Assembly (NCBI RefSeq): GCF_020165495.1
Contig: NZ_JAIUIE010000011.1
Coordinates: 1 to 64,000 of the forward strand
Direction: 5' to 3'
Source: Mesorhizobium sp. BR1-1-16
Lineage (GTDB): Bacteria > Pseudomonadota > Alphaproteobacteria > Rhizobiales > Kaistiaceae
DNA length: 64,000 nt
A program made the position numbers and the translations under genes. The notes under the pieces were generated by a model. It did not search any database. It was given only the letters and a program-made list of their open reading frames with translations, and had not been told where the DNA came from. This document shows, in pieces, positions 6,826 through 22,360 of this stretch. Numbering within the stretch: position 1 is the stretch's first letter; the number at the start of each line of letters is the position of its first letter.

Positions 6826-8694
6826 ATGGCACAAACCGAAGTCAAAGCCGCCGAGGACACTCTGGCAGAAGCCATTCGTCCCTCCTTCCTCGTCCGGCGC
6901 TGGCAGTCGTTCCGAGCGGATCTCGCTGATCCCGACGGCACGGTGGCGATGATCGCGCGCATCCTGCGCGGCAACTACAAGGCGCACTGGAAGGGCTACA
7001 CGGTCTCCTTCTTCTTCCTGTTCATCGTCGCGGGCATGACCTCTCTGTCGGCCTGGATCATGAGCAGCGTCGTCAACCAGATTTTCGTCAAGCAGGACAA
7101 GGAGATGCTCGTTCTCCTCTCCTGTGCCGTCGTGGGCATCTTCGTCGTGAAGGGTGCGGCGACCTATGGGCAGATGGTCGTCCAGAGCCGGATCGGTAAC
7201 CGCATCGTCGCGGAGAACCAGAACCGCTTCTACGATCGAATCCTGCGTTTCGGCCTCAATTTCTACAATGAGCGCGCCTCGGGGGAGATGATCATGTCGA
7301 TCTCCGCCGGCGCCAACGGCATCCGTGTCGTGATCGATACGCTCGTGCTCAGCGTTGGCCGTGATTTCGTGACGCTGATCGGTCTCATCTTCGTGATGGT
7401 CTATCAGGCGCCGATCATGGCGGTCTTCGCGCTGGTGGTCGCGCCGGTGGCGATCATGTTCATCACGCGCCTTGTGAAGCGCATCCGGAACATCGCGCGG
7501 GCCGAGTTCACATCCGGTATCCAGATCATCTCGATCATTCAGGAAACCGTGCACGGGGCCAAGATCGTCAAGGCATTCGGCCTCGGCGATCATATGCGCC
7601 TGCGCATGTCCGATGCCGTCGGCTCCGTCGAGAAGCGCGCCAACAAGATCTCGCAGCTCCAGGCCCGCACCAGCCCGCTGATGGAAACGCTTGGCGGTGT
7701 CTCGATCGGTCTCGTCATCTTCTATGCCGGCTGGAGCACGATCTCGGCCGGCAAGACGCCGGGCGAGTTCATGTCGTTCATCACCGCGCTGCTGCTTGCC
7801 TACGAGCCGGCCAAGCGCCTTGCCCGTGTCCAGGTCGGCATGGCCGAGAGCCTCGTCGGCGTGCGGGCGCTGTTCTCGATCCTCGACCATCCGGTCAGCG
7901 TCACCGAAAACGACGAGAATCCGGCTCTGAAGCTGACGCGGGGCCGCATCGATCTCGATGACATCACGTTCGGCTATCGCCTCAATGAGCCGGTGTTGCA
8001 CGGCATCAACCTCTCGGTCGAGCACGGCAAGCGCCTTGCGCTTGTCGGCCCCTCGGGCGGAGGCAAGTCGACCATTCTGTCGCTCATCCAGCGCTTCTAC
8101 GATGTGCAGAAGGGGGCGATCCGGGTCGACGGCCAGGATATCCGCTCCGTCTCCATCGATTCGCTGCGGCGGCACATCGCCTTTGTCAGCCAGGACGTGT
8201 TCCTGTTCTCCGGCACGGCGCGCGACAATATCCGCATCGGCCGGCTCGACGCGACGGATGCCGAGGTCGAGCAGGCAGCGCGCGATGCCTTTGCCCATGA
8301 TTTCATCATGAACCTGCCGAACGGCTATGACAGCACGGTTGGCGAGAATGGCGTCCAGCTTTCGGGTGGCCAGCGCCAGCGCATCGCGATTGCCCGCGCG
8401 ATCCTCAAGAATGCGCCGATCCTGCTGCTCGACGAGGCAACCTCGGCGCTCGATTCGGAATCCGAACGGATGATCCAGGCCGCGCTGGACAAGCTGGTCG
8501 AGGGGCGCACGACGATCGTGATCGCCCACCGCCTTGCGACCATCCTGACGGCCGACGAGATCGCGGTGATCGAGCATGGCAGGGTGCTGGAAAGCGGCAC
8601 CCATGCCGAACTGGTGCGCAAGCAGGGCCTCTATGAGAAGCTCTACCGCTACCAGTTCGCCGAGGATCCGACGCTGGAGCGCCAGAGCGCGTAA
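6826..8694 (+). CDS. ABC transporter, fused permease-ATPase (MsbA/exporter type)
   Basis: 622 aa half-transporter that should act as a homodimer in the inner membrane. The N-terminal half has about six membrane helices (starting near YTVSFFFLFIVAGM). The C-terminal nucleotide-binding domain has Walker A GPSGGGKST, signature LSGGQRQR, Walker B ILLLDEATSALD and the H-loop IAHRLAT. This layout is shared by lipid A flippase MsbA and other lipid, peptide or multidrug exporters; the substrate is not decided by sequence. ATG 6826 is preferred over the in-frame TTG at 6796. It stands alone, with a stem-loop just downstream. Confidence 0.92.
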   Translation: MAQTEVKAAEDTLAEAIRPSFLVRRWQSFRADLADPDGTVAMIARILRGNYKAHWKGYTVSFFFLFIVAGMTSLSAWIMSSVVNQIFVKQDKEMLVLLSCAVVGIFVVKGAATYGQMVVQSRIGNRIVAENQNRFYDRILRFGLNFYNERASGEMIMSISAGANGIRVVIDTLVLSVGRDFVTLIGLIFVMVYQAPIMAVFALVVAPVAIMFITRLVKRIRNIARAEFTSGIQIISIIQETVHGAKIVKAFGLGDHMRLRMSDAVGSVEKRANKISQLQARTSPLMETLGGVSIGLVIFYAGWSTISAGKTPGEFMSFITALLLAYEPAKRLARVQVGMAESLVGVRALFSILDHPVSVTENDENPALKLTRGRIDLDDITFGYRLNEPVLHGINLSVEHGKRLALVGPSGGGKSTILSLIQRFYDVQKGAIRVDGQDIRSVSIDSLRRHIAFVSQDVFLFSGTARDNIRIGRLDATDAEVEQAARDAFAHDFIMNLPNGYDSTVGENGVQLSGGQRQRIAIARAILKNAPILLLDEATSALDSESERMIQAALDKLVEGRTTIVIAHRLATILTADEIAVIEHGRVLESGTHAELVRKQGLYEKLYRYQFAEDPTLERQSA

Positions 8695-8704
8695 GGTCCC
8701 TGAC

Positions 8705-8726
8705 GTTGCCGGGCGTGCCCGGCAAC
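8705..8726 (+). terminator. Stem-loop after the ABC exporter gene
   Basis: A 9-bp perfect stem GTTGCCGGG/CCCGGCAAC with a CGTG loop starts 11 bp after the stop codon. No U-run follows, so it may be a weak or Rho-assisted terminator or an mRNA-stabilising hairpin. Confidence 0.55.
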
Positions 8727-8804
8727 GCTTCGTCACAGAGCGGAGAGCCTGCCGTCTAGGACGGATCGACATTCATGTTCTGTCGCGCCGCCACTCCATC
8801 CCGC

Positions 8805-8835
8805 TGTCATTGCCGGGCTTGACCCGGCAATGACA
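8805..8835. repeat. Extragenic palindromic repeat (REP-like)
   Basis: A perfect 13-bp inverted repeat, TGTCATTGCCGGG and its complement, around a CTTGA loop, placed between the convergent exporter and FAH genes. The same core (CTTGACCCGGCAAT) recurs at 31315-31334. Such elements are common between genes in Rhizobiales; it may also stop transcription from both sides. Confidence 0.7.
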
Positions 8836-8887
8836 CGCGAACGAGAACGCGATCGCCAGCCTGCGCTCGGCTGAATATCGATCCGCC

Positions 8888-10063
8888 CTACAGCAGGCCG
8901 CGACCCGACAGGTTCTTCATCAGCGCGTTCGCGCCGAAGGTCCACGGCTCGGCGTCGGACGAGTACACGACGCGGTTCGACAACTGGCCGAGTTTCGGCG
9001 CGGCGATCGTCACGATGTCGCCGATCTTGTGCGTGAAGCCTTGGCCGGGGCCGTCGCGATCCTGCACCGGCGCGAACATCGTACCGAGATAGAGCACGAA
9101 GCCATCGGGATACTGATGGTTCTTGCCGACCGTCTGCTTGACGAGATCTTCCGGATCGCGGCTGATCTTCGACATCGCGCTGGAGCCGTCCATGAGGAAG
9201 CCGTCCTCGCCGGCGACCGTCAGGCGAACTTCGGTCTGCCTGACATCGTCGAGCGAGAATGACGCGTCGAACAGGCGGATGAACGGCCCGATCGAGGCGC
9301 TGGCATTGTTGTCCTTCGCCTTCGAGAGCAGCAGCGCCGAGCGCCCCTCGACATCGCGCAGATTGACGTCGTTGCCGAGCGTCGCGCCGACGATATGGCC
9401 GCTGGACGAGACCACGAGGACGACCTCGGGCTCCGGATTGTTCCAGGTCGAGATCGGATGGATGCCGACTTCGGCGAGATGGCCGACGCTCGACATCGGC
9501 TGCGCTTTCGAGAAGATCTCGGCATCGGGGCCGATCCCGACCTCGAGATATTGCGACCACATGCCCTTCTCGATCAGAAGGGCCTTGAGCGCCGCTGCCT
9601 GCTCGGAGCCGGGGCGGAGCCGCGCCAGATCGTCGCCGATCGTCGTCTGGATCTCCGAGCGGATCGCATTGGCCCGCTCGGGCAGGCCGCGCGCCTGCTC
9701 CTCGATGACGCGCTCGAGCATCGAGACCACGAAGGTGACCCCGGCCGCCTTCACTGCCTGAAGGTCGATCGGCGAGATCAGCCACGGCTTGGTACGGTCG
9801 CGCGTCGCGAGCGGCGTGTTGGCGAGAAGGTCGGCGAGGCTTCCGAGACTCTCGCCCGCCGCCATGGCTGCCACGCGGCCTGGATCCTCCATCTCGCAGA
9901 GATCGCGCATGGTGACGACCTCGGCAGTGATGTCGAGGACCTCGTCACCTCTCAGCGATACGATCGAGGGACCGTCGAGGTCGGGCCTGAACACCCGCCC
10001 GACCAGCGTGGCCTCGCCGGCATCCTGGGGCAGCGCAAAGGCAGGTGTCGTATCGAACGGCAT
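8888..10063 (-). CDS. Fumarylacetoacetate hydrolase (FAH) family protein
   Basis: 391 aa. The C-terminal FAH fold shows the metal-ligand pattern EVGIGPDAEIF, then NNPEPEVVLVV, and a downstream Asp in LGNDVNLRD. Members of this longer subgroup act on 2-oxo acids; sugar-acid dehydratases such as 2-keto-3-deoxy-arabinonate dehydratase and acylpyruvate hydrolases are the nearest known activities, but the substrate cannot be chosen here. The start ATG 10063 has an AAGAGGA ribosome-binding site; the 51-residue upstream extension is Arg/Pro-rich and unlikely. It diverges from the importer operon and shares a 428-bp regulatory region with it, so the same GntR regulator could control both. Confidence 0.85.
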   Translation of the reverse strand: MPFDTTPAFALPQDAGEATLVGRVFRPDLDGPSIVSLRGDEVLDITAEVVTMRDLCEMEDPGRVAAMAAGESLGSLADLLANTPLATRDRTKPWLISPIDLQAVKAAGVTFVVSMLERVIEEQARGLPERANAIRSEIQTTIGDDLARLRPGSEQAAALKALLIEKGMWSQYLEVGIGPDAEIFSKAQPMSSVGHLAEVGIHPISTWNNPEPEVVLVVSSSGHIVGATLGNDVNLRDVEGRSALLLSKAKDNNASASIGPFIRLFDASFSLDDVRQTEVRLTVAGEDGFLMDGSSAMSKISRDPEDLVKQTVGKNHQYPDGFVLYLGTMFAPVQDRDGPGQGFTHKIGDIVTIAAPKLGQLSNRVVYSSDAEPWTFGANALMKNLSGRGLL

Positions 10064-10491
10064 GGGGCGGTCCTCTTGGATTTTCGGGCGCCGGCGTCGA
10101 GGCCGGCGGGCGGGGGAATCTAGTACGAGGGGCGGGCCATGCCAACCGTCAGCAGGGTCCTGTCGGCGCATCGGCAGTGTCTTCTCTGCCGTATTTCTGG
10201 GCCTTGAGACTGGCACGATCAGACGGCTGTCTAAATTGTATGCAATGCTGCGCTATTGTATGCAATCTCAGGATATGCCCGCCGCCGGCTGAACGCGGCG
10301 GAGCCGATCGGGCGATCGGCGAGCGGAATCTCGCACGAAATTAACTCAACGAATTCAACCGGCTGCAAGGCCATGTGCGCCGGGGGCGGGCGGCTGGCCG
10401 CGCTTTGGCACATCTGTTGCGAGACAGGGGAACGGGAGCACCCCGGCGTGGGGAGGCCTGCGCCGATGTCCGTTGCAAGAGGTAACTGCCC
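10064..10491. other. Divergent intergenic region of 428 bp
   Basis: This lies between the FAH gene and the BMP-type importer operon. Apart from the twin operator at 10235-10266, no coding region with supporting features is seen. It should hold promoters for both directions. A GGGAGGCC run and an AAGAGGTAA purine block lie near the importer start. Confidence 0.7.
10235..10266. promoter_or_regulatory. Twin GntR-type operator, two copies of ATTGTATGCAAT
   Basis: Two identical 12-bp near-palindromes, 10235-10246 and 10255-10266, start exactly 20 bp apart, so they lie on one face of the helix. TTGTATnCAA resembles sites of FadR/FCD-subfamily GntR regulators (TTGTATACAA-like), and a GntR/FCD gene ends the operon at 21683. 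The sites are 172 bp from the FAH start and 226 bp from the importer start. Binding is inferred, not shown. Confidence 0.65.
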
Positions 10492-11607
10492 ATGTCCGCA
10501 TTCACACTCAATCGCAGGACGCTGCTGAAGAGCGCCGCGATCGGCTCGCTTGGCCTGACCACGGGCCTTTTGACCCAGCGTTCGGCCTTCGCGGCTGACC
10601 TGACGATCGGCATCATCTATGTCGGTTCGCGCGATGACTATGGCTGGAACCAGGCGCATGCCGTGGCGGCCAAGGCGCTCGCCGCTGTCCCGGGCGTCAA
10701 AGTCGTTGAGGAGGAGAACGTTCCTGAGACGGTCGCCGTATCCAAGACCATGGAATCGATGGTCGAGCTTGATGGCGCCGGCCTGATCTTCGCAACGTCC
10801 TTCGGCTACTACTCGCCCTTCATGGTCGATGCCGCCAAGAAATATCCCGATGTCCAGTTTCGCCATGCGGCGCCGCTGTGGACCGACAAGGACCCGAAGA
10901 ACGCCGGCAGCTATTTCGGCTATCTCGACCAGGCCCATTACATCGATGGCATCGCCGCTGGCCTCTCGACCAAGTCGAACAAGCTTGGCTTCGTCGCCGC
11001 CAAGCCGATTTCCTCGGTGCTCTCGAACATCAACTCGTTCACGATCGGCGCCCGCAAGGTCAATCCGAACGCCACCGTCCAGGTGATCTTCACCGGCGAC
11101 TGGTCGATGCCGGTGCGCGAGGCCGAGGCCACCAATGCGCTGATCGATGCGGGCTGCGACGTCATCACCTGCCATGTCGACAGCCCGAAGACGGTCATTC
11201 AGAACGCCGAGGCCAAGGGCGTCAAGTCCTGCGGCCACAATGCCTCGCAGGCTGATCTCGCGCCGAAGGGCTTCATCACCGGCGCCGAATACAAGTGGGA
11301 GACGATCTACAAGCAGTATGCCGACACGCTGACGAAGGGCGGTGAACTGCCGAACTTCCTTTCGGGCGGCTACGATCTCGACTTCGTGCAGAACACGCCC
11401 TATGGCGCCGGTGCGACGCCCGAGGCTATCAAGGCGGCCGATGCCGCCAAGGTCGAGATGAAGGCCAAGGTGCCGGTCTTTGTCGGGCCGCTCAAGGACA
11501 ATACCGGCAAGGAAGTCATCCCGGCCGGCACGTCGCATGCGCCTTACGATCCGTGGATCGACCAGATCAACTTCCTGGTCGAAGGCGTCACCGGCTCCAT
11601 CACCTGA
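10492..11607 (+). CDS. BMP family ABC transporter substrate-binding protein
   Basis: 371 aa periplasmic binding protein of the Bmp/PnrA (Med) family, which usually binds nucleosides or related heterocycles. The N terminus carries a twin-arginine type signal (NRRTLLKSAAIGSLGL, ending at AFAADL), so Tat export is likely. The mature part begins DLTIGIIYVGSRDDYGWNQA, typical for the family. ATG 10492 follows an AAGAGGTAA ribosome-binding site. It is the first gene of the long operon, and its two permease genes and ATPase gene lie downstream. The neighbouring hydrolases suggest a cyclic ureide such as cyanuric acid or a pyrimidine-like ring as ligand (inference). Confidence 0.92.
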   Translation: MSAFTLNRRTLLKSAAIGSLGLTTGLLTQRSAFAADLTIGIIYVGSRDDYGWNQAHAVAAKALAAVPGVKVVEEENVPETVAVSKTMESMVELDGAGLIFATSFGYYSPFMVDAAKKYPDVQFRHAAPLWTDKDPKNAGSYFGYLDQAHYIDGIAAGLSTKSNKLGFVAAKPISSVLSNINSFTIGARKVNPNATVQVIFTGDWSMPVREAEATNALIDAGCDVITCHVDSPKTVIQNAEAKGVKSCGHNASQADLAPKGFITGAEYKWETIYKQYADTLTKGGELPNFLSGGYDLDFVQNTPYGAGATPEAIKAADAAKVEMKAKVPVFVGPLKDNTGKEVIPAGTSHAPYDPWIDQINFLVEGVTGSIT

Positions 11608-11643
11608 TCGACCCCGCGCGGGCACGGCCCGCCGCAATAAAGC

Positions 11644-11669
11644 GCCGCCCCGGCTTTGGCCGGAGCGGC
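11644..11669 (+). promoter_or_regulatory. Intercistronic stem-loop after the substrate-binding protein gene
   Basis: An 11-bp stem with one mismatch (GCCGCCCCGGC / GCCGGAGCGGC) and a TTTG loop sits between the binding-protein gene and the first permease gene. Hairpins here are typical of ABC operons and favour higher levels of the binding-protein message by protecting its 3' end; that role is inferred. Confidence 0.5.
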
Positions 11670-11720
11670 ACGACGGGCGGCGCCGCCGCCTCTATCCCTT
11701 CTCTCTTCGGGAGCGTTTCC

Positions 11721-12839
11721 ATGGTGGATATTGCACAGCAGGACGCCGCGCCGGCGATCTCCGGCGGTTTCGCCGAGGCGCTCGACCGGGTGCGGCGATC
11801 GTCCGAATATGTCGTGATCCCGCTGTTCGCGCTCCTCGTGGCAGGGCTCCTGTTCTCGATCTTCCTGCTGGCGCTCGGCCAGTCGCCCGGAACGTTCTTC
11901 GCGCTGCTCTGGCGCGGTGGCTTCGGCACCGGGTTCTCGTGGCAAAACACGCTGGTGCGCGCGGCGCCGCTTATCCTCACGGCGCTCTGCGTCGCGATCC
12001 CGGCGCGTCTCGGCCTCGTCATCATCGGCGGCGAGGGCGCGCTGGTACTCGGCGGCTTTGCCGCCGCGGTGGCGTCGATCCCGCTGGTTCATGCCGGCGC
12101 GCCGAGCTTTGTGGTGCTGCCTGTGATGTGCCTCTGCGCCATCGCCGTCGGTGGATTGTGGATCGGGCTCGTCGGCGTGCTGCGGCACTACCGGGGCATC
12201 AACGAGACCATCGCCAGCCTGCTGATGTCCTACATCGCCATCGCGATCATGAATTTCTTCGTCGAGGGAGCGCTGCGCGATCCGGCCAACCCGAACAAGC
12301 CGTCGACCCAGGCGATCGGCGAGGCCAACATGATCGGCGATGTGCCGGGCCTCGGCGTGCATTGGGGCCTGCCGGTCGGCATCGTCGTCGCGATCCTGCT
12401 GTGGGTGCTGATGAACCGCACCACGTTCGGCTTCGCGGCGCGCGTCACCGGCGGCAATGTCCGCGCCGCGCGGGCGCAAGGGCTTCCCGTCGGGCGGCTC
12501 ATCGTCATTTCCTGCGCCATCGCGGGGGCCTGCGCGGGCCTTGCCGGCTTCTTCGAGGTCGCGGCGATACAGGGCAAGGCCAATGCGTCGCTCGCCGCCG
12601 GCTATGGCTTCACCGGCATCCTGGTCGCGTTTCTCGCCCGGCAGAACCCGCTCGCCATCGTGCCGGTGGCCATCTTCCTCGGCGGGATCGCGGCGGCCGG
12701 CGGGCTGATCCAGCGCCGCATGGGCATGCCCGACGCCACTGTGCAGGTTCTGCAAGGGTTGATGTTCGTCGTGCTCCTGGTCAGCGAGACGCTTTACGGC
12801 CGACTTCCGATCTTCCGGGCGAAAGGAGACAAGCGATGA
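11721..12839 (+). CDS. ABC transporter permease (BMP/nucleoside-type importer), subunit 1
   Basis: 372 aa inner-membrane protein with about eight to ten hydrophobic helices, beginning YVVIPLFALLVAGLLFSIFLLAL. The segment IGGEGALVLGGFAAA and later FTGILVAFLARQNP are family hallmarks of the BPD_transp_2 permeases that pair with BMP binding proteins. The start ATG 11721 is preceded by GGGAG; the long upstream reading frame from 11553 is Arg-rich and rejected. It ends in a 4-bp ATGA overlap with the second permease gene, a sign of translational coupling. Confidence 0.92.
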   Translation: MVDIAQQDAAPAISGGFAEALDRVRRSSEYVVIPLFALLVAGLLFSIFLLALGQSPGTFFALLWRGGFGTGFSWQNTLVRAAPLILTALCVAIPARLGLVIIGGEGALVLGGFAAAVASIPLVHAGAPSFVVLPVMCLCAIAVGGLWIGLVGVLRHYRGINETIASLLMSYIAIAIMNFFVEGALRDPANPNKPSTQAIGEANMIGDVPGLGVHWGLPVGIVVAILLWVLMNRTTFGFAARVTGGNVRAARAQGLPVGRLIVISCAIAGACAGLAGFFEVAAIQGKANASLAAGYGFTGILVAFLARQNPLAIVPVAIFLGGIAAAGGLIQRRMGMPDATVQVLQGLMFVVLLVSETLYGRLPIFRAKGDKR

Positions 12840-13762
12840 GCGGCACCGATATCGGCTTCTGGGGTGTTCCGCTTGCGATGTTCGCCGGCGCCATCCGCGT
12901 CTCGACGCCGTTCCTGTTCGTCTCGCTCGGCGAATGCCTCACCGAGAAGTCGGGCCGGATCAATCTCGGCCTTGAAGGTACGCTCGTCTTCGGCGCCATG
13001 TCGGGCTATGCCGTCTCCTATCTCACGGGTTCACCCTGGCTCGGCGTGCTGGCGGCCGGCATCTCCGGCATGTTCTTCGGCGCCATCCACGGCTATATCT
13101 GCAAGCTTCCCAAGGTGAACGACATCGCGATCGGCATCGCCATGATGTTGTTCGGGACGGGGCTCGCCTTCTTCTTCGGCAAGCCGTTCATCCAGCCGCA
13201 GGCGCCGCATCTGCCCTCGATCAATCTCGGCGGCTGGTCTGATTACCCGCAGATCCAGTCGGCGCTCGAGATCAATCCGCTCTTCCTGGTCGGCGCCGTG
13301 CTCGCGGTCGCGATGTGGTGGGCGTTCAAGAACACGCGTTGGGGCCTTATCATCCGCATGACCGGCGACAGCGCGCCGGCGGCCCTCGCGATGGGCTATT
13401 CGGTCGATCTCGTCCGCTTTCTCGCCACGACGGTTGGCGGCTTCTTCGCCGGCGTCGGCGGCGCCTTCCTGTCGCTCTATTATCCGGGCGCCTGGAGCGA
13501 GGGCCTTTCTTCCGGGCAAGGCCTGATGGCGGTCGCGCTCGTCATTTTCTCGCGCTGGAACCCGCTGCTCTGCTTCGGTGCAGCGCTCCTCTTCGGCGCG
13601 GCCGGCGCCATCGGGCCGGCGCTGCAATCGGTCGGGATCACGCAGGGCTACTATTTCTTCAACGCGGCGCCCTACCTCCTGACCCTCTTCATCATGATCG
13701 CCTCCGTCTCGCCGAAGCGCTCGCTGAAGGGCGCGCCGGGCGAACTGTCGATCACCAAGTAG
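12836..13762 (+). CDS. ABC transporter permease (BMP/nucleoside-type importer), subunit 2
   Basis: 308 aa with many membrane helices. The motif TEKSGRINLGLEGTLVFGA near residues 35-55 is the characteristic EAA-like start of this permease class, and the end PYLLTLFIMIASVSP is the usual last helix. The ATG at 12836 overlaps the stop of subunit 1, and an AAAGGAGA ribosome-binding site lies inside the end of that gene. It should form the heterodimeric channel with subunit 1 in the inner membrane. The formamidase gene begins 10 bp after its stop. Confidence 0.92.
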   Translation: MSGTDIGFWGVPLAMFAGAIRVSTPFLFVSLGECLTEKSGRINLGLEGTLVFGAMSGYAVSYLTGSPWLGVLAAGISGMFFGAIHGYICKLPKVNDIAIGIAMMLFGTGLAFFFGKPFIQPQAPHLPSINLGGWSDYPQIQSALEINPLFLVGAVLAVAMWWAFKNTRWGLIIRMTGDSAPAALAMGYSVDLVRFLATTVGGFFAGVGGAFLSLYYPGAWSEGLSSGQGLMAVALVIFSRWNPLLCFGAALLFGAAGAIGPALQSVGITQGYYFFNAAPYLLTLFIMIASVSPKRSLKGAPGELSITK

Positions 13763-13772
13763 GAGTATCGCC

Positions 13773-14804
13773 ATGAATGGATTGGGAGGCCTCAACAAGG
13801 CGCCCGAGGGCGTCGTCATCGGCCTTGTGCAGCTGCAACTGCCTGTCACCGTCACCAAGGGTGATCTTGCACGCCAGACGGCGCGGGTCGTCGAACTGGT
13901 CGGCAAGGCGCGGCGCAACAATGCCGGCATGGACCTTGTCGTCTTCCCGGAATATGCGCTGCACGGGCTGTCGATGGACATCAATCCCGAGATCATGTGC
14001 GATCTCGACGGTCCGGAGGTCGCCGCTTTCAAGGAAGCCTGCGCGACGCACAAGATCTGGGGCTGCTTCTCGATCATGGAGCGCAATCCCGGCGGCAATC
14101 CTTATAACTCCGGCATCGTCATCGACGATACCGGCGCGCTGAAGCTCTATTATCGCAAGCTCCATCCCTGGGTGCCTGTCGAGCCTTGGGAGCCCGGTGA
14201 CATCGGCATTCCCGTCATCGACGGCCCCAAGGGCTGCAAGCTGGCGCTGATCATCTGCCATGATGGCATGTTCCCGGAGATGGCGCGCGAATGCGCCTAC
14301 AAGGGCGCCGAGATCATGATCCGCACGGCGGGCTATACCGCGCCGATCCGCCAGAGCTGGCGCTTCACCAATCAGTCGAACGCCTTCTGCAATCTGATGG
14401 TCACTGCGAATGTCTGCATGTCGGGCTCGGACGGGACGTTCGATTCCATGGGCGAGGGGATGATCGTCAATTTCGACGGCGAGATCATCGCGCATGGCAC
14501 CAGCGGCCGTCCGGACGAGATCATCGCCGCCGAGGTTCGTCCCGATCTCGTGCGCGAGGCGCGCATCCACTGGGGCGTCGAGAACAACATCTATCAGTTC
14601 GGCCATCGCGGTTATGTCGCGGTGAAGGGCGGCGCGCAGGATTGCCCCTACACCTACATGACCGATCTTGCCGCCGGCCGCTATCGCCTGCCCTGGGAGG
14701 CCGAGGTGGTGCACACGGATGGCACTGCCTGCGGTTTTGCTGCGCCGACGCGGCTTCATGGCGAGCGCGCCGACGCGCCGGATGCCAAGCAGGCCGCGGA
14801 GTAG
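13773..14804 (+). CDS. Formamidase-like nitrilase-superfamily amidohydrolase
   Basis: 343 aa. The nitrilase-fold triad is visible: Glu60 in VVFPEYALHG, Lys129 in YYRKLHPW and Cys162 in ICHDGMFPE. These positions and the CHDGM-PE motif resemble AmiF-type formamidases and short aliphatic amidases. The enzyme would hydrolyse formamide or another small amide to ammonia in the cytoplasm. ATG 13773 has an AGGAG ribosome-binding site. It lies between the importer permeases and the biuret-hydrolase-like gene; a formyl-bearing intermediate or a small amide released from the imported ring would explain its presence, but this is a guess. Confidence 0.85.
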   Translation: MNGLGGLNKAPEGVVIGLVQLQLPVTVTKGDLARQTARVVELVGKARRNNAGMDLVVFPEYALHGLSMDINPEIMCDLDGPEVAAFKEACATHKIWGCFSIMERNPGGNPYNSGIVIDDTGALKLYYRKLHPWVPVEPWEPGDIGIPVIDGPKGCKLALIICHDGMFPEMARECAYKGAEIMIRTAGYTAPIRQSWRFTNQSNAFCNLMVTANVCMSGSDGTFDSMGEGMIVNFDGEIIAHGTSGRPDEIIAAEVRPDLVREARIHWGVENNIYQFGHRGYVAVKGGAQDCPYTYMTDLAAGRYRLPWEAEVVHTDGTACGFAAPTRLHGERADAPDAKQAAE

Positions 14805-14813
14805 GAGGTGGAC

Positions 14814-15542
14814 ATGGCTTCCGATACTCTCGACGAGCGCGTCGCCGCAGCTTTCGTTCACGAAGGCCGTACCATCGCCTCCGACCCCTATCCCTGGCCG
14901 TTCGACGGCAATCTGAAGCCTGACAACACCGCGCTCATCGTCATCGACATGCAGGTCGATTTCTGTGCGCCCGGTGGCTATGTCGACTCGATGGGCTACG
15001 ACATCTCGCTGACCCGCGAACCGATCGAGCCGATCCGCCGCGTGCTCGATGCGATGCGCGCCAAGGGCTATCACGTCATCCATACGCGAGAAGGCCATCG
15101 CCCCGATCTCGCCGATCTGCCCGCCAACAAGCGCTGGCGCTCGCAGCGGATTGGCGCCGGGATCGGCGACCAGGGCCCATGCGGCCGCATTCTGGTGCGC
15201 GGCGAGCCAGGCTGGGAAATCATCCCGGAACTGCAGCCGATCGCGGGCGAGGCGATCATCGACAAGCCCGGCAAGGGCTCGTTCGTCGCCACCGACCTTG
15301 AACTGGTCCTGCGCCAGAAGGGCATCCGCAACATCGTGCTCGCCGGCGTCACCACCGATGTCTGCGTTCACACCACGATGCGCGATGCGAATGATCTTGG
15401 CTATGAATGCGTGCTGCTCAGCGATTGCACCGCCGCCACGAAGCGCGAAAATCATCTCGCGGCCATCGACATGGTCAAGATGCAGGGCGGGGTCTTCGGC
15501 GCCGTTGCGACGTCTGATGCGCTGATCGCGGGGCTTGTCTGA
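14814..15542 (+). CDS. biuH: Cysteine hydrolase of the isochorismatase superfamily, probable biuret amidohydrolase
   Basis: 242 aa. The catalytic triad Asp45 (VIDMQVDF), Lys151 (IDKPGKG) and Cys184 (TTDVCVHT) is complete. N-terminal DPYPWPF, then [21 protein letters not shown]-like and [13 protein letters not shown] segments closely resemble the rhizobial biuret hydrolase that converts biuret to allophanate and ammonia. The start ATG 14814 follows a perfect AGGAGG; a GTG at 14808 lies within that ribosome-binding site. The stop overlaps the next ATG by one base (TGATG). It sits directly before the ring-opening hydrolase gene, as expected for a cyanurate-to-biuret-to-allophanate path. The symbol is given from recognised similarity and context, not from an alignment. 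Confidence 0.8.
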
Positions 15543-16678
15543 TGACACGCACGGCCTTTGTCCATCGCATCGCGGCCGCATCGCCGGACGATGTTTCGGG
15601 GCTTTCGGACGCGATCGCGTCGGGAGTGATCGATCCGCGTGGCATCACCGCGATCCTCGGCAAGACCGAGGGCAATGGCAACGTCAACGATTTCACCCGC
15701 GCCTTTGCCGTCCGCGCGCTCAAGGACGCATTGCGGCCGCATCTCGCGCCCGAGGCTGTCGAGGCGGTGTCCTATGTGATGTCCGGCGGCACCGAAGGGG
15801 CCATGTCGCCGCATTTCCTGGTGCTTGGCAGCAGCGAGACGGACAATGCTGGTCCCTCGCCGGCGCTGGCGGTCGGCGGCGCGCACACGCCGGCGATGCC
15901 CTTCGAGCAGCTTGGCCGACTCGGTCAGGTGGCACTCGTCGCCGAGGGCGTTCGCGCCGCCATGGCCGATGCCGGCATCACCGATGCTGCCGATGTCCAT
16001 TTCGTCCAGATCAAATGCCCATTGCTGACGGCGGAGCGCATCGCCGCCGTCGAGGCGAGCGGCGCCAGCGTCGCTACGCGCGATACTCTGAAATCCATGG
16101 GCCTCTCACGCGGCGCTTCGTCGCTCGGCGTTGCCGTCGCGCTCGGTGAGATTGCGCTCGAAACCTTCGATGAAGCCGCGATCGGTCGCGACGCGTCGCT
16201 GTGGTCGGGCCGTGCCTCGGCATCGGCCGGCGTCGAGCTCGCCAATCACGAGATCGTCGTGCTCGGCATGAGCCGCGACTGGTCGGGGCCGCTCGCCATC
16301 GACCATGCCGTGATGGCAGACGGCATCGATGTCGAACCCGTGCGCGCGGCGCTGCGTCGTCTCGGCTTCGCCGCCAACGGACAGCTGACGCCGGGCGAAC
16401 GGCCGGCGCTGGTTGCGCTGCTCGCCAAGGCCGAGGCCGGCACCAGCGGGCGCCTCCGCGGTCTCCGTCACACGATGCTCGATGATTCCGACATCTCGTC
16501 GACGCGTCATGCCCGCGCCTTTGTGGCCGGCAGCCTCGGGGCTCTTGTCGGCCATGCCGGCATCTATGTCTCGGGCGGCGCCGAGCATCAGGGCCCCGAT
16601 GGCGGCGGCCCTGTCGCGGTCATCGCCGATCGCCGCCTCATCCCATCGCTTGTCGCAGCAGAAGGATCGCCGTCATGA
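15542..16678 (+). CDS. Ring-opening amidohydrolase: cyanuric acid hydrolase or barbiturase
   Basis: 378 aa, the usual AtzD/TrzD/barbiturase length. The protein has three internal repeats, each with a Lys-Ser pair: Lys41 (GKTEGNG) with Ser81 (SGGTEG), Lys158 (VQIKCP) with Ser193 (SRGASS), and Lys296 (LAKAEA) with Ser344 (SGGAEHQGPDGGGP). The middle pair is the catalytic one in cyanuric acid hydrolases. The family hydrolyses cyanuric acid to carboxybiuret, or barbiturate to ureidomalonate. The AtzE/AtzG/biuret hydrolase neighbours favour cyanuric acid, but barbiturase cannot be excluded. The stop overlaps the next ATG (ATGA). Confidence 0.9.
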   Translation: MTRTAFVHRIAAASPDDVSGLSDAIASGVIDPRGITAILGKTEGNGNVNDFTRAFAVRALKDALRPHLAPEAVEAVSYVMSGGTEGAMSPHFLVLGSSETDNAGPSPALAVGGAHTPAMPFEQLGRLGQVALVAEGVRAAMADAGITDAADVHFVQIKCPLLTAERIAAVEASGASVATRDTLKSMGLSRGASSLGVAVALGEIALETFDEAAIGRDASLWSGRASASAGVELANHEIVVLGMSRDWSGPLAIDHAVMADGIDVEPVRAALRRLGFAANGQLTPGERPALVALLAKAEAGTSGRLRGLRHTMLDDSDISSTRHARAFVAGSLGALVGHAGIYVSGGAEHQGPDGGGPVAVIADRRLIPSLVAAEGSPS

Positions 16679-18216
16679 CCGCGTTCGCCGAACCGACAGG
16701 AGCCGTGCGTCGCGCGGTGGAACTGGAGACCGTCGGCATGACCAAGATCTTCGGATCGCTGGTCGCGCTGGAGGACGTCTCTGTTCATGTGAAGCCGGGC
16801 ACGCTGCATGCGCTGCTCGGCGAGAACGGCGCCGGCAAGTCGACGCTGGTCAAATGCATCATGGGTTTCTACCAGCCGACCCGTGGCACGGTCATGGTCG
16901 ATGGCAAGGAGGTCGTGATCGCGACGCCGCGTGACGCCCATGCCCATGGCATCGGGATGGTCTACCAGCATTTCACGCTGGTGCCCTCGCTGACGGCGGC
17001 TGAAAACCTCGTCATCAGCCGCGCCCATCCGCCGGCGGTGATCGACTGGAAGAAGGAGATCGCCGGGCTGGAGGAATTCCTGGAGCGGATGCCGTTCAAG
17101 GTGCCGCTGACGGTCCCGGTCGCGAGCCTTTCGGCCGGCGAGAAGCAGAAGCTTGAAATCCTGAAGCAGCTCTATCTCGACCAGCGCTTTCTGATCCTCG
17201 ACGAGCCGACCTCGGTGCTGACGCCGGGCGAGGCCGATGAGGTGCTCGGCCTGTTGCGCGGCATGACCGAGGCGGGCGACCTGACGATCCTGATGATCAG
17301 CCATAAGTTCCGCGAGGTCATGGCCTATGCCGATGACGTCACGGTGCTCCGGCGCGGACAGAAGATCGGCGGCGGCAAGGTCGGCGAACTCACCGTCGAC
17401 GACATGAGCCGCATGATGATCGGCGACACCAAGATCCGTGAACGCGCCGCCCGCAAGACGTTCACCGGTCAGAAGGTGACGCTGGAACTCGCCGGCATCT
17501 GCGCCGAGGACGATGGCGGCATGCCGGCGGTCGATGCCGTCAATCTCAAGGTCCATGCAGGCGAGATCGTCGGCGTCGCCGGCGTCTCCGGTAATGGCCA
17601 GTCGACGCTGATCGAGGTGCTGTCTGGCCAGCGCGACATGACCGAGGGCCAGCTTTTCATCGACGGGGAGAATTTCGAGCCGGTGCGCCAGCAGATGGCA
17701 AAGTTCAAGGTGTTCGGCCTGCCGGAGGAACCGCTGAAGAATGCCGCGGTGCCGCGCATGACCGTGGCCGAGAACATCGCCTTCCGCTCCTTCGACGAAC
17801 CGCCGATCGCCCGGCGCTTCGGCTTCATGTCGCCGAAGCCGATGCGCAAGCGCGCGCGCGAGCTCATCGCCGCCTATCGCATCAAGACGCCCTCGACCGA
17901 GGAGCCGATCGAGAATCTCTCGGGCGGCAATGTTCAGCGGGCGATCCTTGCGCGCGAGCTTTCCGGGCAGGTCGATGTGCTGATCGTCGCCAATCCCTGT
18001 TTCGGCCTCGACTTCGCGTCCGTGTCTGAAATCCGCTCGCAGATCATGGACCAGCGCAATCGCGGCGCTGCCGTGCTGCTGGTTTCGGAGGATCTCGACG
18101 AGGTGCTGGAACTTTCGGATCGTGTCGCAGTGATGTCGGGCGGCGGTATCCACTATGTCGTGCCGATCGCCGAGGCCGACCGCAATTCCATCGGCAAGGC
18201 GATGGCGGGGCATTGA
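16675..18216 (+). CDS. ABC transporter ATP-binding protein with two NBDs (BMP/sugar-type importer)
   Basis: 513 aa with tandem nucleotide-binding domains. The first has Walker [10 protein letters not shown], signature [11 protein letters not shown] and Walker [10 protein letters not shown]. The second has a degenerate Walker [10 protein letters not shown], signature LSGGNVQRA and a Walker B-like VLIVANPC without the usual acidic pair, as in RbsA/NupA-type importers. It powers the importer made with the permeases at 11721 and 12836 and the binding protein at 10492, from which it is separated by catabolic genes. It overlaps the ring-opening hydrolase gene by 4 bp. Confidence 0.93.
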
Positions 18217-18218
18217 GC

Positions 18219-18881
18219 ATGATCACTGTCGACGCCAAGCCGTTTCCCTATGCCTTTCCACCTGAAAAGACGGCGCTGATCGTTATCGACATGCAGCGCG
18301 ATTTCGTCGAGCCAGGCGGCTTTGGCGAATCCCTCGGCAATGATGTCTCGCTGCTCCGGGCCATCATTCCGACCGTCGCATCGCTGATCGGCCTCTTTCG
18401 CACCAAGGGGTGGCCGGTGATCCATACGCGCGAGGGTCACGAGGCTGATCTCTCCGATTGCCCGCCCAGCAAGATCCGCCGCGGCGCCCCGTCGATGCGG
18501 ATCGGTGATGTCGGGCCGATGGGGCGCATCATGGTGCGCGGCGAACCCGGCAACGCGATCATCCCCGAGCTTCAGCCTGTCGACGGTGAGATCGTGATCG
18601 ACAAGCCCGGCAAGGGGGCCTTCTATGCGACCTCGCTCGGCGATGATCTGGCGCGCCTCGGCATCACACATCTCGTCTTTGCCGGCGTCACCACCGAGGT
18701 CTGCGTGCAGACGACGATGCGCGAGGCCAATGATCGCGGCTTCGACTGTCTGCTGATCGAGGACGCGACCGAGAGCTATTTCCCGCACTACAAGGCCGCG
18801 ACCGTTTCGATGATCGCGGCGCAGGGCGGAATCGTCGGCTGCGTGACGCCGTTCACGTCGCTCGAAGCCGCGGCGGCGTGA
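18219..18881 (+). CDS. Second isochorismatase-superfamily cysteine hydrolase (biuret/triuret hydrolase-like)
   Basis: 220 aa, clearly a paralogue of the biuret-hydrolase-like protein at 14814. It keeps the triad Asp24 (VIDMQRDF), Lys129 (IDKPGKG) and Cys162 (TTEVCVQT) and the shared [10 protein letters not shown] and [15 protein letters not shown] segments, but lacks the N-terminal DPYPWPF stretch and the [12 protein letters not shown] region. Different substrate-pocket residues suggest another linear ureide, for example triuret, carboxybiuret or ureidomalonate; triuret hydrolases belong to this branch. ATG 18219 begins 2 bp after the ATPase stop; an in-frame TTG at 18213 is possible. The specific substrate is unknown. 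Confidence 0.82.
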
Positions 18882-18896
18882 GGAAAGGACGGAGTG

Positions 18897-19079
18897 ATGA
18901 AAGAGTTCGATGCGGCGGCCCATGTCGCGCATATGGAACAGGTGATGGGGCTCACGATCGACGAGGCCTGGCGGGCGGGGGTTGTCGCCAACATGGCAGC
19001 CACGGCGCGCGCCGCCGCGCTGGTGACCGAGTTCAAGCTCGATGATCATGTCGAGCCGGCGCCGGTGTTCAAGCCGTGA
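18897..19079 (+). CDS. atzG: AtzG-like small subunit (DUF4089)
   Basis: 60 aa acidic, helical protein: an N-terminal helix rich in His/Met (HVAHMEQVMGL), then TIDEAWRAGVVANMAATARAA and the end EFKLDDHVEPAPVF. The LDDHVEPAPVF tail is typical of AtzG, the small partner that wraps around and stabilises the AtzE amidase much as GatC does GatA. It sits directly before the AtzE-like gene with a 4-bp GTGA overlap, so the two should be made in equal amounts. A GTG at 18894 is an alternative start. Confidence 0.85.
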   Translation: MKEFDAAAHVAHMEQVMGLTIDEAWRAGVVANMAATARAAALVTEFKLDDHVEPAPVFKP

Positions 19080-20476
19080 GCGCCTTCGACATCCTGTTCC
19101 GACCAGGCCATGAGATCGCCGCCGACGTTCGCGCGCGCCGCATTTCCGCCCGGGAAGTGACCGAGGCGGCGCTCGATGCCATCGAGGCGCTTGACGGCAA
19201 GCTCAACGCCTTCACCGATGTAACGGCGGAGCGGGCGATCGAGGAAGCGAACCGTGTCGATGCCGCCATGATCGAGGGCAAGTCATTGCCGCTGGCGGGC
19301 GTGCCTTATGCCGTCAAGAATCTCTTCGACATCGAGGGCGTGGTTACCCGCGCCGGGTCCAAAATCAATCGCGACAATGCGCCGGCCACCGCCGATGCGA
19401 GCCTCGTGACGCAGATGCAGAAGGCGGGCGCCGTGCTGATCGGCGGCGTCAATATGGGCGAATATGCCTATGACTTCACCGGCGAGAACGTCCATGACGG
19501 TGCATCGCTCAACCCGCATGATCCGGCCCGCATGTCGGGCGGCTCGTCGGGAGGATCGGGCACGGCGGTCGCCTCCGGCATGGTCGCCCTGTCGCTCGGC
19601 TCCGACACCAATGGCTCGATCCGCGTGCCGTCGTCCTTCTGCGGCCTTTATGGTTTGAAGCCGACGTTTGGCCGCCTTTCGCGCGCCCGAACCTTTCCCT
19701 TTGTCGCCAGCCTCGATCATCTCGGGCCGATCGCACGCTCGCCGCGCGATCTCGCAGCCGCGTTCAACGCGCTGCAATTTCCTGATCCCGACGACCGTCA
19801 TCAGCTGGCGCAGCGTCCGTTGGATGTCGAGCGCGCACTTGGAACCGGCATCAGCGGCCTTCGCATCGCGGTTGCCGGCGGCTATTTCCGTGACCAGGCT
19901 GGCAGCGAGGCCCTGGCGGCCGTCGAGCATGTCGCGAAGGCCCTTGGCGCGAGCCAGGAAGTCACCCTGCCGGAGGTCCACCGGGCGCGCGCTGCCGCCT
20001 ATGTCATCACGACCAGCGAATCCTCGGCCCTGCATCTACAGCGCCTTCAGACGCGGGCCGGGGACTATGATCCCGACACGCGCGATCGTTTCCTCTCCGG
20101 CGCGATGGTGCCGGCGGCCTGGTACATGGCCGCGCAACGTTTCCGGACATGGTTCCGCGCCGAGATGGAGCATCTGTTCGAGACCGTCGACGTCATTCTC
20201 GCGCCTGCGACGCCGTTTCCAGCGCTCCTCTCTGGCACGAAAGAGGTGGAGCTTGCCGGCAACAGGGTTCCGGCCCGGCCCAATATCGGTATCTTCGCAC
20301 AGCCGATCAGCTTCATCGGCCTGCCGGTCGTGGCCGTGCCGGTCTGGCCCGCCGGCACGCATCTGCCCATCGGCGTGCAGGTGATCGCGCCTGCGTGGCG
20401 AGAAGACATTGCGCTTCGGGTTGCCGAGGCACTGCATCAGGCCGGCGCCACGGCGGCGCCCGTCGCTCCCCTATGA
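19076..20476 (+). CDS. atzE: AtzE-like amidase (1-carboxybiuret hydrolase family)
   Basis: 466 aa amidase-signature enzyme. The Ser-cisSer-Lys triad is Lys81 (YAVKNLFD), Ser157 (MSGGSSGG) and Ser181 (SDTNGSIR). In cyanurate pathways AtzE with AtzG removes ammonia from 1-carboxybiuret, the unstable product of cyanuric acid hydrolase. The start is GTG 19076, overlapping the stop of the AtzG-like gene; the sequence MSAFDILFRPGHEIAADVRA matches family N termini. The stop overlaps the next ATG (ATGA). If the imported ring is barbiturate, this enzyme would instead be expected to act as a ureidomalonate-type amidase. Confidence 0.88.
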   Translation: MSAFDILFRPGHEIAADVRARRISAREVTEAALDAIEALDGKLNAFTDVTAERAIEEANRVDAAMIEGKSLPLAGVPYAVKNLFDIEGVVTRAGSKINRDNAPATADASLVTQMQKAGAVLIGGVNMGEYAYDFTGENVHDGASLNPHDPARMSGGSSGGSGTAVASGMVALSLGSDTNGSIRVPSSFCGLYGLKPTFGRLSRARTFPFVASLDHLGPIARSPRDLAAAFNALQFPDPDDRHQLAQRPLDVERALGTGISGLRIAVAGGYFRDQAGSEALAAVEHVAKALGASQEVTLPEVHRARAAAYVITTSESSALHLQRLQTRAGDYDPDTRDRFLSGAMVPAAWYMAAQRFRTWFRAEMEHLFETVDVILAPATPFPALLSGTKEVELAGNRVPARPNIGIFAQPISFIGLPVVAVPVWPAGTHLPIGVQVIAPAWREDIALRVAEALHQAGATAAPVAPL

Positions 20477-21279
20477 ATGCTGAGATCATGACCACCGAAA
20501 CCGAACTCAACGCCCGCTGGGCCGGCCGCAACAACGACAAGGATCGGCTGCGCGACCGCATCTGGGCGAAGCTCAAGACTGACGGCGTCAATGTCGGGCC
20601 GGTTGACAGCCGCATCCCGAATTTTGCCGGTGCCGATCTCGCCGCGCTGCATCTCTCGCGGCTCGATGACTGGAAGAATGCACGCGTCGTCAAATGCAAT
20701 CCCGATCCGCCGCAGATACCGGTCCGGCTGCGCGCCCTCTATGACGGCAAGATCCTCTATGCGCCGGTGCCGGAGCTGACCAAGGGCTTTCCGTTCGTTC
20801 GTCTCGATCCAGCGGTGCTCGAGGCCAAGGGCGTGCAATTCGAACTCGCGGCCGTTTCGCAAGGCTTTGTCGAGCATGGCGAGCCGGTGGAATTCGAAGA
20901 GATGGAAAAACTCGATTTCGTTGTCGTCGGATGTGTCGCCGTCAGCCGCGCCGGCGGGCGCACGGGCAAGGGCGGCGGTTTTGCCGATCTTGAGCTCGGC
21001 ATCTTCCGCGAGCTTGGCAAGGTGACGCCGGAGACGCCGGTCGCGACGACTGTGCATTCGGTCCAGGTCGTCGACGACGCGCTGCTGCCGATGCAGCCGC
21101 ACGATTCACCCCTCGATTTCATCGCGACGGATCTCGGCCTGATCGAGACCGGCACCACCATGGCGCGGCCGACGGGAGTCGCCTGGGACTTCGTGCAGGC
21201 CGACCAATATGCCTCGATCCCGTTCCTCAACGATCTGAGGGCACGCATCGAGAACCGCGGGGGCCGAGCGGCATCATGA
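20473..21279 (+). CDS. 5-formyltetrahydrofolate cyclo-ligase-like protein (MTHFSD-type)
   Basis: 268 aa, longer than true cyclo-ligases (about 190 aa). The N-terminal part has DRIWAKLKTDGVN, RIPNFAGAD and VKCNPDPPQIPVR, followed by the motif GKGGGFADLE at about 166-175 and TTVHSVQVVDDALLP; these match the MTHFS-like domain of the MTHFSD family rather than classical MTHFS, whose motif is GxGxGYYDR. The biochemical activity of this branch is not established. It is embedded by 4-bp overlaps between the AtzE- and AtzH-like genes, so it should belong to the pathway, perhaps in one-carbon handling or ring-substrate binding. Confidence 0.8.
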   Translation: MNAEIMTTETELNARWAGRNNDKDRLRDRIWAKLKTDGVNVGPVDSRIPNFAGADLAALHLSRLDDWKNARVVKCNPDPPQIPVRLRALYDGKILYAPVPELTKGFPFVRLDPAVLEAKGVQFELAAVSQGFVEHGEPVEFEEMEKLDFVVVGCVAVSRAGGRTGKGGGFADLELGIFRELGKVTPETPVATTVHSVQVVDDALLPMQPHDSPLDFIATDLGLIETGTTMARPTGVAWDFVQADQYASIPFLNDLRARIENRGGRAAS

Positions 21280-21686
21280 CCATCGAGATCGATCATCCCG
21301 AGACCAAGGCGGAACTCGAAGAAGCCTTTGCCCGCTATGAGGCAGCGCTGGTCGCCAATGACGTCGCCGTCCTGGACGAGCTCTTTCTCGTTTCGCCGGC
21401 GACGATCCGTTATGGCGCGACTGAAAATCTCTACGGCTACAACGAGATTGCCGCGTTTCGCTCCGGCCGCTCGCCGGCTGGCCTCGCGCGGCGGCTCGCG
21501 CGAACCGTCATCACGACCTATGGCCGCGACTGCGGCGTCGCCTCGACCCTGTTCTATCGCGATAGCGCGCCGGGCAAGGTCGGCCGCCAGACGCAGACCT
21601 GGGTGCGCACGGTCGCGGGCTGGCGGGTCGCGGCGGCACATGTCAGCCTGATCGCTGATCCGGATGGCGGCGGGACTGGATCGTGA
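21276..21686 (+). CDS. atzH: AtzH-like protein (DUF3225, SnoaL/NTF2 fold)
   Basis: 136 aa. The pattern ELEEAFARYEAALVANDVAVLDELFLVSP followed by TIRYGATENLYGYNEIAAFRSGR and the final WRVAAAHVSL are typical of the DUF3225/AtzH family, a cone-shaped NTF2-like fold found beside AtzE genes. Its proposed role is in amide-bond chemistry of the carboxybiuret step, but it is poorly defined. Start ATG 21276 overlaps the previous stop, and its own stop overlaps the GTG of the regulator gene. Confidence 0.83.
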   Translation: MTIEIDHPETKAELEEAFARYEAALVANDVAVLDELFLVSPATIRYGATENLYGYNEIAAFRSGRSPAGLARRLARTVITTYGRDCGVASTLFYRDSAPGKVGRQTQTWVRTVAGWRVAAAHVSLIADPDGGGTGS

Positions 21687-22360
21687 GGGCGCGCGCGGCC
21701 GATCCGGGAGAGACACCCGTTCGCCGCACGCGGACCGAAGACCTGCGGCTGCAGCTTGCCGACGAGATCGTGCGCGGCGTATTTGCGCCCGGGGACCCGC
21801 TCGACGAAGCCGGGTTGGCGGCGCGCTATGGCGTGTCGCGGACGCCGGTACGCGAGGCGCTACGGCAATTGGCGGCGAGCGGGCTCGTCGAAATCCGCCC
21901 GCATCGCGGGGCCATCGTCACCCGGCCTTCCGAAAGCCGGCTGATGGAGATGTTCATCGTCATGGCCGAGCTCGAAAGCCTCTGCGCCGCGCTGGCTGCC
22001 GAGGCGATGAGCCTTCTCGAGCGGCGCGAACTGGAGCGGGTGCATCGTGTCCTCGGTGAATTGGTGAAGTCGGGTGATCCGCTGCGCTATGCCGAGGCCA
22101 ATGAGCGCTTCCACGGCGCCATCTATGCCGGAGCCCATAATGGCTACCTCGCCGAACTGACGCTGGCGACGCGGGCGCGGCTCGCGCCATTCCGCCGGGC
22201 ACAGTTCCGCCGCGTCGGGCGCCTGGCGGATTCCTTCGACGAGCATGACCGCATCGTCGAATCGATCCTGCGTGGCGATCGCGATCAGGCGACGCGCGAA
22301 ATGCGCTCCCATATCGGCACGGTCAAGGAAGCCTTCGACCGGTATATGGAAGGGCGCTGA
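21683..22360 (+). CDS. GntR family transcriptional regulator, FCD (FadR) subfamily
   Basis: 225 aa. The winged helix-turn-helix covers roughly residues 18-82 (LAARYGVSRTPVREALRQL) and the FCD ligand-binding domain follows, with the metal/ligand residues in ANERFHGAIY, EHDRIVESIL and MRSHI. It starts at GTG 21683, overlapping the AtzH-like stop. As the last gene of the operon it probably gives autoregulation; the twin ATTGTATGCAAT sites at 10235-10266 are the natural operator. The effector is likely the imported ring or its hydrolysis product (inference). It converges on mtgA with 9 bp between the stop codons. Confidence 0.9.
   Translation: MRARAADPGETPVRRTRTEDLRLQLADEIVRGVFAPGDPLDEAGLAARYGVSRTPVREALRQLAASGLVEIRPHRGAIVTRPSESRLMEMFIVMAELESLCAALAAEAMSLLERRELERVHRVLGELVKSGDPLRYAEANERFHGAIYAGAHNGYLAELTLATRARLAPFRRAQFRRVGRLADSFDEHDRIVESILRGDRDQATREMRSHIGTVKEAFDRYMEGR

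Follow-up and report, generated by a model that had tools for sequence, protein, structure and literature searches.

We analyzed a cluster of catabolic genes in Mesorhizobium sp. BR1-1-16, located within the first 64 kb of contig C3 (NZ_JAIUIE010000011.1) of its 5.2-Mb genome; this whole 64-kb stretch is referred to below as the window. Positions 10492-22360 contain 13 genes, all on the plus strand, and their predicted products are, in order, a substrate-binding protein, ATP-binding cassette (ABC) permeases 1 and 2, a formamidase, the biuret hydrolase BiuH, the ring opener AtzD, the transport ATPase, the triuret hydrolase TrtA, AtzG, AtzE, a COG0212-like protein, AtzH, and a GntR regulator. 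A preliminary description of this locus had counted eleven genes, although its own list of parts sums to 13; its coordinates, the common direction of the genes, and its family assignments are confirmed. Eight of the 12 junctions are overlaps of 1 or 4 bp, as had been described for most of them; at the remaining four, the genes are separated by 3, 10, 12, and 113 bp. All 13 genes exceed a Pfam gathering cut-off. The NCBIfam cut-offs are passed by the formamidase, BiuH, AtzD, AtzE, and the AtzH-like protein (as HpxZ), and are missed by the four transporter proteins, GntR, the second isochorismatase, the COG0212-like protein, and AtzG. The 113-nt gap, tested for an RNA element, gave a fold z-score of -1.13, and no Rfam match reached the gathering score between positions 8000 and 24000. 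Since the core gene order recurs in other genera, we do not regard the operon as a chance arrangement.

Two genes encode isochorismatase-fold hydrolases. The first (14808..15542) scores 413 bits against the BiuH model NF050097 (cut-off 370) and is 77.5% identical to the solved Rhizobium biuret hydrolase (6azo). It carries the catalytic Asp, Lys, and Cys, as well as the BiuH residues Tyr, Tyr, Asp, and Val at TrtA positions 35, 41, 160, and 205, and is assigned as BiuH. The second (18213..18881) falls below the cut-off of the BiuH model (257 of 370 bits) and is 64.8% identical to TrtA (6xix) versus 47.5% to BiuH. It retains the catalytic Asp24, Lys129, and Cys162 together with Gln202, and its Phe35, Asn41, Glu160, and Ile205 match all four published discriminating residues of TrtA. 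By residues and similarity it is assigned as triuret hydrolase, TrtA, a function that the preliminary description had missed while placing both proteins in the right family. A TrtA query of the species-genome collection listed at least 594 stretches, of which 557 were confirmed and the best 80 analyzed; the closest TrtA in this 80-locus set is that of Kaistia soli (92%), which places the host in or close to the genus Kaistia. The same residue split was found in 80 of 80 TrtA and 70 of 70 BiuH relatives; since the relatives had been selected for an identity of at least 60% with the proteins encoded in the window, it shows consistency and not independent proof. Published TrtA is described as ultraspecific for triuret (PMC7948467). 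If the second isochorismatase is indeed a triuret hydrolase, the acyclic compounds triuret and biuret would therefore be the core substrates. Elsewhere in the genome, near the end of a contig (L092; G000:C7:68000-82057, in the region 9907-12643, minus strand), a further isochorismatase resembling BiuH (269 of 370 bits) adjoins an allophanate-hydrolase-like open reading frame (ORF) of 518 aa.

The ring opener (15542..16678) belongs to the AtzD family of cyanuric acid hydrolases (PF09663, 468 bits, cut-off 25; NF052395, 549 bits, cut-off 360). It is 67.0% identical to the cyanuric acid hydrolase of Azorhizobium (4nq3) and keeps all seven named active-site residues, namely Ser79, Lys156, Ser226, Ser333, Arg52, Arg188, and Arg314. 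The preliminary description had considered either cyanuric acid or barbiturate as the ring substrate. Oxidative pyrimidine catabolism with a barbiturase at this step could draw on the fact that barbiturases belong to the same protein family and that the related isochorismatase RutB, to which there is a weak match (126 of 378 bits), acts on pyrimidine products. However, the barbiturase subgroup is described as having Gln at the position of Arg188 (PMC4051656), the nearest solved enzyme to the ring opener is 4nq3 (458 bits, versus 249 bits against barbiturase 5hwe), and the two isochorismatases carry BiuH and TrtA residues. On the basis of Arg188 and the closer similarity, the barbiturate route was rejected as highly improbable, and the ring opener is classified by sequence as the cyanuric acid hydrolase type. 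The genome also encodes a second AtzD-family protein (L091; G000:C3:100000-119999, in the region 4645-13671), 45% identical to the first and with all seven residues kept. Its gene follows an energy-coupling factor transporter whose S component matches PF09819, which we take to be the YkoE family for thiamin or hydroxymethylpyrimidine, and precedes genes for a flavin adenine dinucleotide monooxygenase and an amidase; this second enzyme possibly acts on a different ring substrate.

TrtA and AtzD have both been reported to yield carboxybiuret (PMC7948467, PMC6219798). This product decarboxylates to biuret with a half-life of about 20 min in vitro (PMC7948467) or is converted to allophanate via AtzEG and AtzH (PMC6219798). 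Because triuret and cyanuric acid share this product, the operon would have two entries and two exits, one through AtzEG and AtzH and the other through decay to biuret followed by BiuH. The genes for the first exit are an AtzG-like subunit (18894..19079; PF13318, 66.6 bits), a member of the AtzE 1-carboxybiuret hydrolase family (19076..20476; NF006631, 670 bits, cut-off 461; nearest solved 6c62, 494 bits), and an AtzH-like protein (21276..21686; PF11533, 182 bits; nearest solved AtzH 6bjt). The latter keeps Tyr22 and Arg46, both reported as needed. Clusters of AtzGEH are also reported in the context of other nitrogen compounds (PMC6219798), the AtzH-like protein passes the HpxZ model (190 bits, cut-off 135), and a gene for guanine deaminase is present upstream; the main substrate could accordingly be oxalurate or some other ureide derived from urate, with AtzG, AtzE, and AtzH acting as HpxX, HpxY, and HpxZ. 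We regard this as quite improbable. The AtzG-like subunit misses the HpxX cut-off (28.7 of 70 bits), none of the 13 operon genes was assigned to the gamma-glutamyltransferase-like HpxW, and AtzE passes AtzE models. Moreover, in a quick tree the window AtzH groups with that of Pseudomonas sp. ADP and with AtzH proteins of AtzE-bearing loci, and TrtA and BiuH are encoded on the same predicted transcript. Triuret and cyanuric acid are themselves named as products of chemical urate oxidation (PMC7948467), and an origin of the substrate in urate oxidation, raised in the preliminary description, is possible.

The importer consists of a BMP/PnrA-type substrate-binding protein (10492..11607; PF02608, 121 bits), two permeases (11721..12839 and 12836..13762; both PF02653), and an ATPase with two ATP-binding domains (16675..18216; PF00005 in two stretches). 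The nearest solved relative of the binding protein is AtzT (6pi5, 165 bits), and its pocket was mapped onto that structure with the residue spacing checked. It keeps Ser97, Phe98, and Trp194 of AtzT, has Trp in place of Tyr45, and has His and Asp in place of Asn218 and Asn220, as in 3s99, which was modelled with adenine. At the position of Glu165, which contacts the purine in AtzT, it has Ser, and in this respect the pocket departs from the AtzT type. This Glu is absent from all 64 binding proteins of TrtA operons (Gln in 44, Ser in 12, Thr in 8), and is present in two of the eight other BMP proteins of the genome examined as a control (L177, 65% identical to the 3s99 protein, and the more distant L181). 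The residues fit a flat ligand that would not be read like a purine, and we name no ligand. Elsewhere in the genome (L180/L186; G000:C26:264000-283999, in the region 8368-10343) lies the gene of an orphan BMP binding protein that shares 63% identity with the one in the operon and has Leu at the Glu165 position (L180). This gene adjoins an ORF with weak GntR similarity, with a gene for a fused hydantoinase A/B at a greater distance upstream.

We then compared gene content among the TrtA loci, where identity thresholds and ORF ends lower some of the counts. Among 64 loci with at least 7.8 kb upstream, counted on the TrtA strand, the two permeases were present in 64 and 64, BiuH in 63, the binding protein in 59, and the ATPase in 56, with all five core genes in 50; the formamidase was found in 27 and AtzD in 6. 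Among 59 loci with both flanks available, AtzF was found in 37, the AtzH-like protein in 32, the formamidase in 25, a ChrR-type small cupin in 23, AtzE in 18, COG0212 in 12, and AtzD in 7. The BMP importer and BiuH form a near-constant core of TrtA loci, and the other genes are movable additions. On a quickly built TrtA tree, in which strong support was limited to few branches, the formamidase changed 14 times (shuffle mean 19.2), COG0212 7 times (11.1), and AtzE 7 times (15.6). None of the 59 loci carried both the cupin and the AtzH-like gene, and four carried neither. The cupin is a candidate for carboxybiuret handling; since the split amounts to one change on the TrtA tree, we do not use it as repeated evidence of shared function. 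A link between the formamidase and AtzF was considered and rejected (AtzF in 13 of 25 formamidase carriers versus 24 of 34 non-carriers). TrtB was sought through genomes of the Herbaspirillum family, where the solved TrtA was matched in 48 of 398 at a best identity of 72%, and none was recognizable as its source.

The distribution of AtzD bears on the possibility that the operon in reality serves triuret and biuret alone, with the ring opener being a passenger or having some other substrate. With partial contigs counted, AtzD occurs in 8 of the 80 TrtA loci, and on the TrtA tree its 7 carriers require 6 changes, a scatter like that of shuffled labels (mean 6.8 in 100 shuffles). In the window, however, atzD overlaps its two neighbors by 1 and 4 bp, it is kept in K. 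soli (91% identity) and K. hirudinis (76%), and its product has the intact active site described above; we therefore consider the ring opener unlikely to be a mere passenger. The gene lies between those for BiuH and the ATPase in five loci (L003, L004, L011, L019, L079) and probably in L016, where ORF ends are over-extended; the L005 contig ends before BiuH, and in L053 AtzD is placed after TrtA. Other genomes of the class provided 26 AtzD-family regions for comparison, of which one has a nearby TrtA-like ORF (L130, 66%), two a distant BMP-type transporter (L127, L135; substrate-binding proteins 23-25%), and two AtzE-like (48-51%) and AtzH-like ORFs (L135, L136).

The last gene (21683..22360; PF07729, PF00392) encodes a GntR/FCD-family regulator. 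Upstream of the operon, a predicted sigma-54 promoter, TGGCACATCTGTTGC, at 10406-10420 on the plus strand is the sole exact match in the window to what we take to be the -24/-12 consensus; with one mismatch allowed, the window contains four such sites, equal to chance expectation. The site is aligned in L003, L004, L015, and L016. Between about -420 and +180 of the binding-protein ORF start, it was found at 10/10 in 26 of 61 loci versus 0.16% of shuffles, and at 9/10 or better in 34 of 61 versus 2%, these loci being related and not independent. Two copies of ATTGTATGCAAT, 20 bp apart (10235-10246 and 10255-10266), lie 140 bp upstream of this promoter. The exact sequence ATTGTATNCAAT occurs twice in the genome, both times in this pair. 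Among relatives, mismatches to the pair track GntR identity (0, 1, and 2 at 97, 88, and 82%; 4 at 67 and 62%), with L020 as a clear exception (7 mismatches at a GntR identity of 71%); among 610 shuffles, the closest had 5 mismatches. We predict that 10235-10266 is the operator of the operon's own GntR. The elements that are new here are this exact sigma-54-type promoter, the paired operator with no second occurrence in the genome, the binding pocket without the purine-contacting Glu of AtzT, and the recurrence of a COG0212 protein in operons of this kind.

Two enzymes have less obvious roles. The nitrilase (13773..14804) is by family a formamidase, AmiF (NF009803, 569 bits, cut-off 406; nearest solved 5g3o, 362 bits), with no obvious substrate in the proposed pathway; perhaps it salvages a formamide-type by-product or an amide that is imported along with the ureides. 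The COG0212/MTHFSD-type protein (20473..21279; PF01812, 77.8 bits) belongs to an orphan family resembling 5-formyltetrahydrofolate cyclo-ligase (5-FCL). It stays below the cut-off for that enzyme (TIGR02727, MTHFS_bact, 30.1 of 84.9 bits), and the sequence search found no solved relative; a stronger PF01812 gene, a candidate cyclo-ligase, is on contig C23 of the same genome. COG0212 occurs in 15 of the 80 TrtA loci, partial contigs counted, and matches at E 1e-40 or better were found in six of 385 genomes of the class, its own excluded. Two of these copies (L196, L197; 70-72%) directly follow the ATPase gene in operons that combine the importer, the formamidase, and BiuH, and for which blastp gave no TrtA or AtzE match. 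The remaining four (40-42%) have different surroundings, which resemble one another in three cases and include a Pfam-confirmed FAH-family gene in L199. In the 59 fully flanked loci, AtzE accompanies COG0212 in 9 of 12 carriers versus 9 of 47 non-carriers (Fisher p 0.0005), with too few supported independent pairs on the tree to test. A plant relative, which shares the 5-FCL Pfam family and was compared by description only, is reported to have no detectable 5-FCL activity and is tied to thiamin (PMC3223725, PMC4120688), in contrast to the ureide operons seen here. Our literature search, with few subscription papers in reach, found no COG0212 protein in a biuret or triuret operon. Tentatively, and with somewhat less than even confidence, we suggest that the COG0212 protein of the operon is an enzyme dedicated to breaking down ureides, for example through an ATP-using reaction of a ureide that is carboxylated or formylated. 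If so, such a step might also explain the recurrent formamidase.

Most parts of this system are known. A stretch of Rhizobium leguminosarum plasmid pRL9b3 (NZ_CP050100.1, L096; PMC5806882) has genes 1-8 in the same order, the formamidase included. It differs in ending with a cupin gene (9662-10015 of L096, the query copy, outside the 59 loci), in lacking AtzG, AtzE, COG0212, and AtzH, and in having GntR upstream and divergent. Pseudomonas sp. ADP (atzDGEHF/atzRSTUVW; PMC6219798, PMC6834077) shares AtzD, AtzG, AtzE, AtzH, reported sigma-54 promoters, and a BMP-type importer, AtzS-W with AtzT (PMC6834077). That importer, however, is encoded in a separate divergent operon beside atzDGEHF, AtzF is present, the regulator is LysR in place of the GntR of the window, and no TrtA or BiuH is named in the pathway described there. 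The triuret/biuret clusters of Herbaspirillum and nitrifiers (PMC7948467, PMC12625717) share TrtA and BiuH and differ in having atzF and, in part, trtB in the cluster. The nitrifier contigs, published in 2025, carry bmpA-nupABC, biuH, trtA, trtB, atzF, GntR, and FAH in varying sets, and no atzD is described for the nitrifier genomes in that report (PMC12625717). A Pseudomonas luteola plasmid has atzF, an importer, the formamidase, BiuH, the ATPase, TrtA, hpxZ, and GntR. Given the published importer-biuH-trtA clusters and the Rhizobium genes, import is not new, contrary to the preliminary description. The operon is best described as a hybrid variant assembled from ureide pathways that are already known, and its combination of parts is notable.

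Together, these observations favor, with a probability of about 0.82, an operon that imports the small ureides triuret, biuret, and cyanuric acid for nitrogen scavenging, with two entries and with sigma-54 and GntR control; the preliminary description, which proposed that an operon with AtzD/AtzE/AtzG/AtzH-type enzymes is dedicated to the uptake and breakdown of nitrogen-rich ureides, was right in outline. In this scheme, the ABC importer would take up small flat ureides, TrtA would convert triuret to 1-carboxybiuret and ammonia, and AtzD would form 1-carboxybiuret from cyanuric acid. AtzEG would then produce 1,3-dicarboxyurea, from which AtzH would form allophanate; carboxybiuret that decays to biuret would reach allophanate through BiuH. 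Allophanate would finally be split to ammonia and CO2 by a hydrolase encoded elsewhere, and an allophanate hydrolase above its cut-off is found on contig C27, beside urea carboxylase. Transcription would need sigma-54 under nitrogen limitation and be tuned by GntR at the paired operator. Several observations weigh against this scheme. AtzF is missing, so that atzD, G, E, and H are present without the full atzDGEHF set in one operon. A sigma-54-type site of at least 9/10 is lacking in 27 of 61 relatives, and a check of six upstream stretches revealed no NtrC-type GCAC-N5-9-GTGC; for L003 and L016, the stretch had been placed by ORF starts that were over-extended. Six of the eight other BMP proteins in the genome likewise lack Glu165, and the pocket residues rule out no specific ligand. 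Finally, few TrtA loci carry AtzD and those that do are scattered, and the importer-BiuH-TrtA core was found in none of the 26 AtzD-family regions, some of them cut by contig ends; cyanuric acid may therefore be a minor substrate.

Several neighboring features deserve mention. An FAH-superfamily gene (8888..10063, minus strand; PF01557, 38 bits) is divergent from the operon, as it also is in L003, L004, and L016, and is perhaps co-regulated with it. The guanine deaminase gene (5251-6594, minus strand; 568 bits, cut-off 375) lies about 4 kb upstream, with an ABC exporter-like ORF between it and the operon. ARAGORN called an unusually long tRNA-Ala(ggc) of 99 nt at 53412-53510 on the plus strand. 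The operon of a Bosea sp. metagenome-assembled genome (L016) is mostly 81-96% identical to that of the window, with TrtA at 70, AtzG at 67, and AtzE at 74%, a stretch that is possibly a recombination patch.

In a single string of genes with an importer, the operon would unite the two described routes, from triuret and from cyanuric acid, with the two described fates of carboxybiuret. One organism could thus reveal whether AtzEG-AtzH and BiuH serve as alternative routes or as a safeguard. In many proteobacteria, the use of triuret and biuret is predicted to be under sigma-54 control, which supports a role in nitrogen starvation; both compounds are fertilizer impurities and possible products of urate oxidation. 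The COG0212 family is placed in a defined chemical neighborhood and, if its proposed role is correct, this would be the first defined chemical setting for an orphan family otherwise loosely tied to thiamin.

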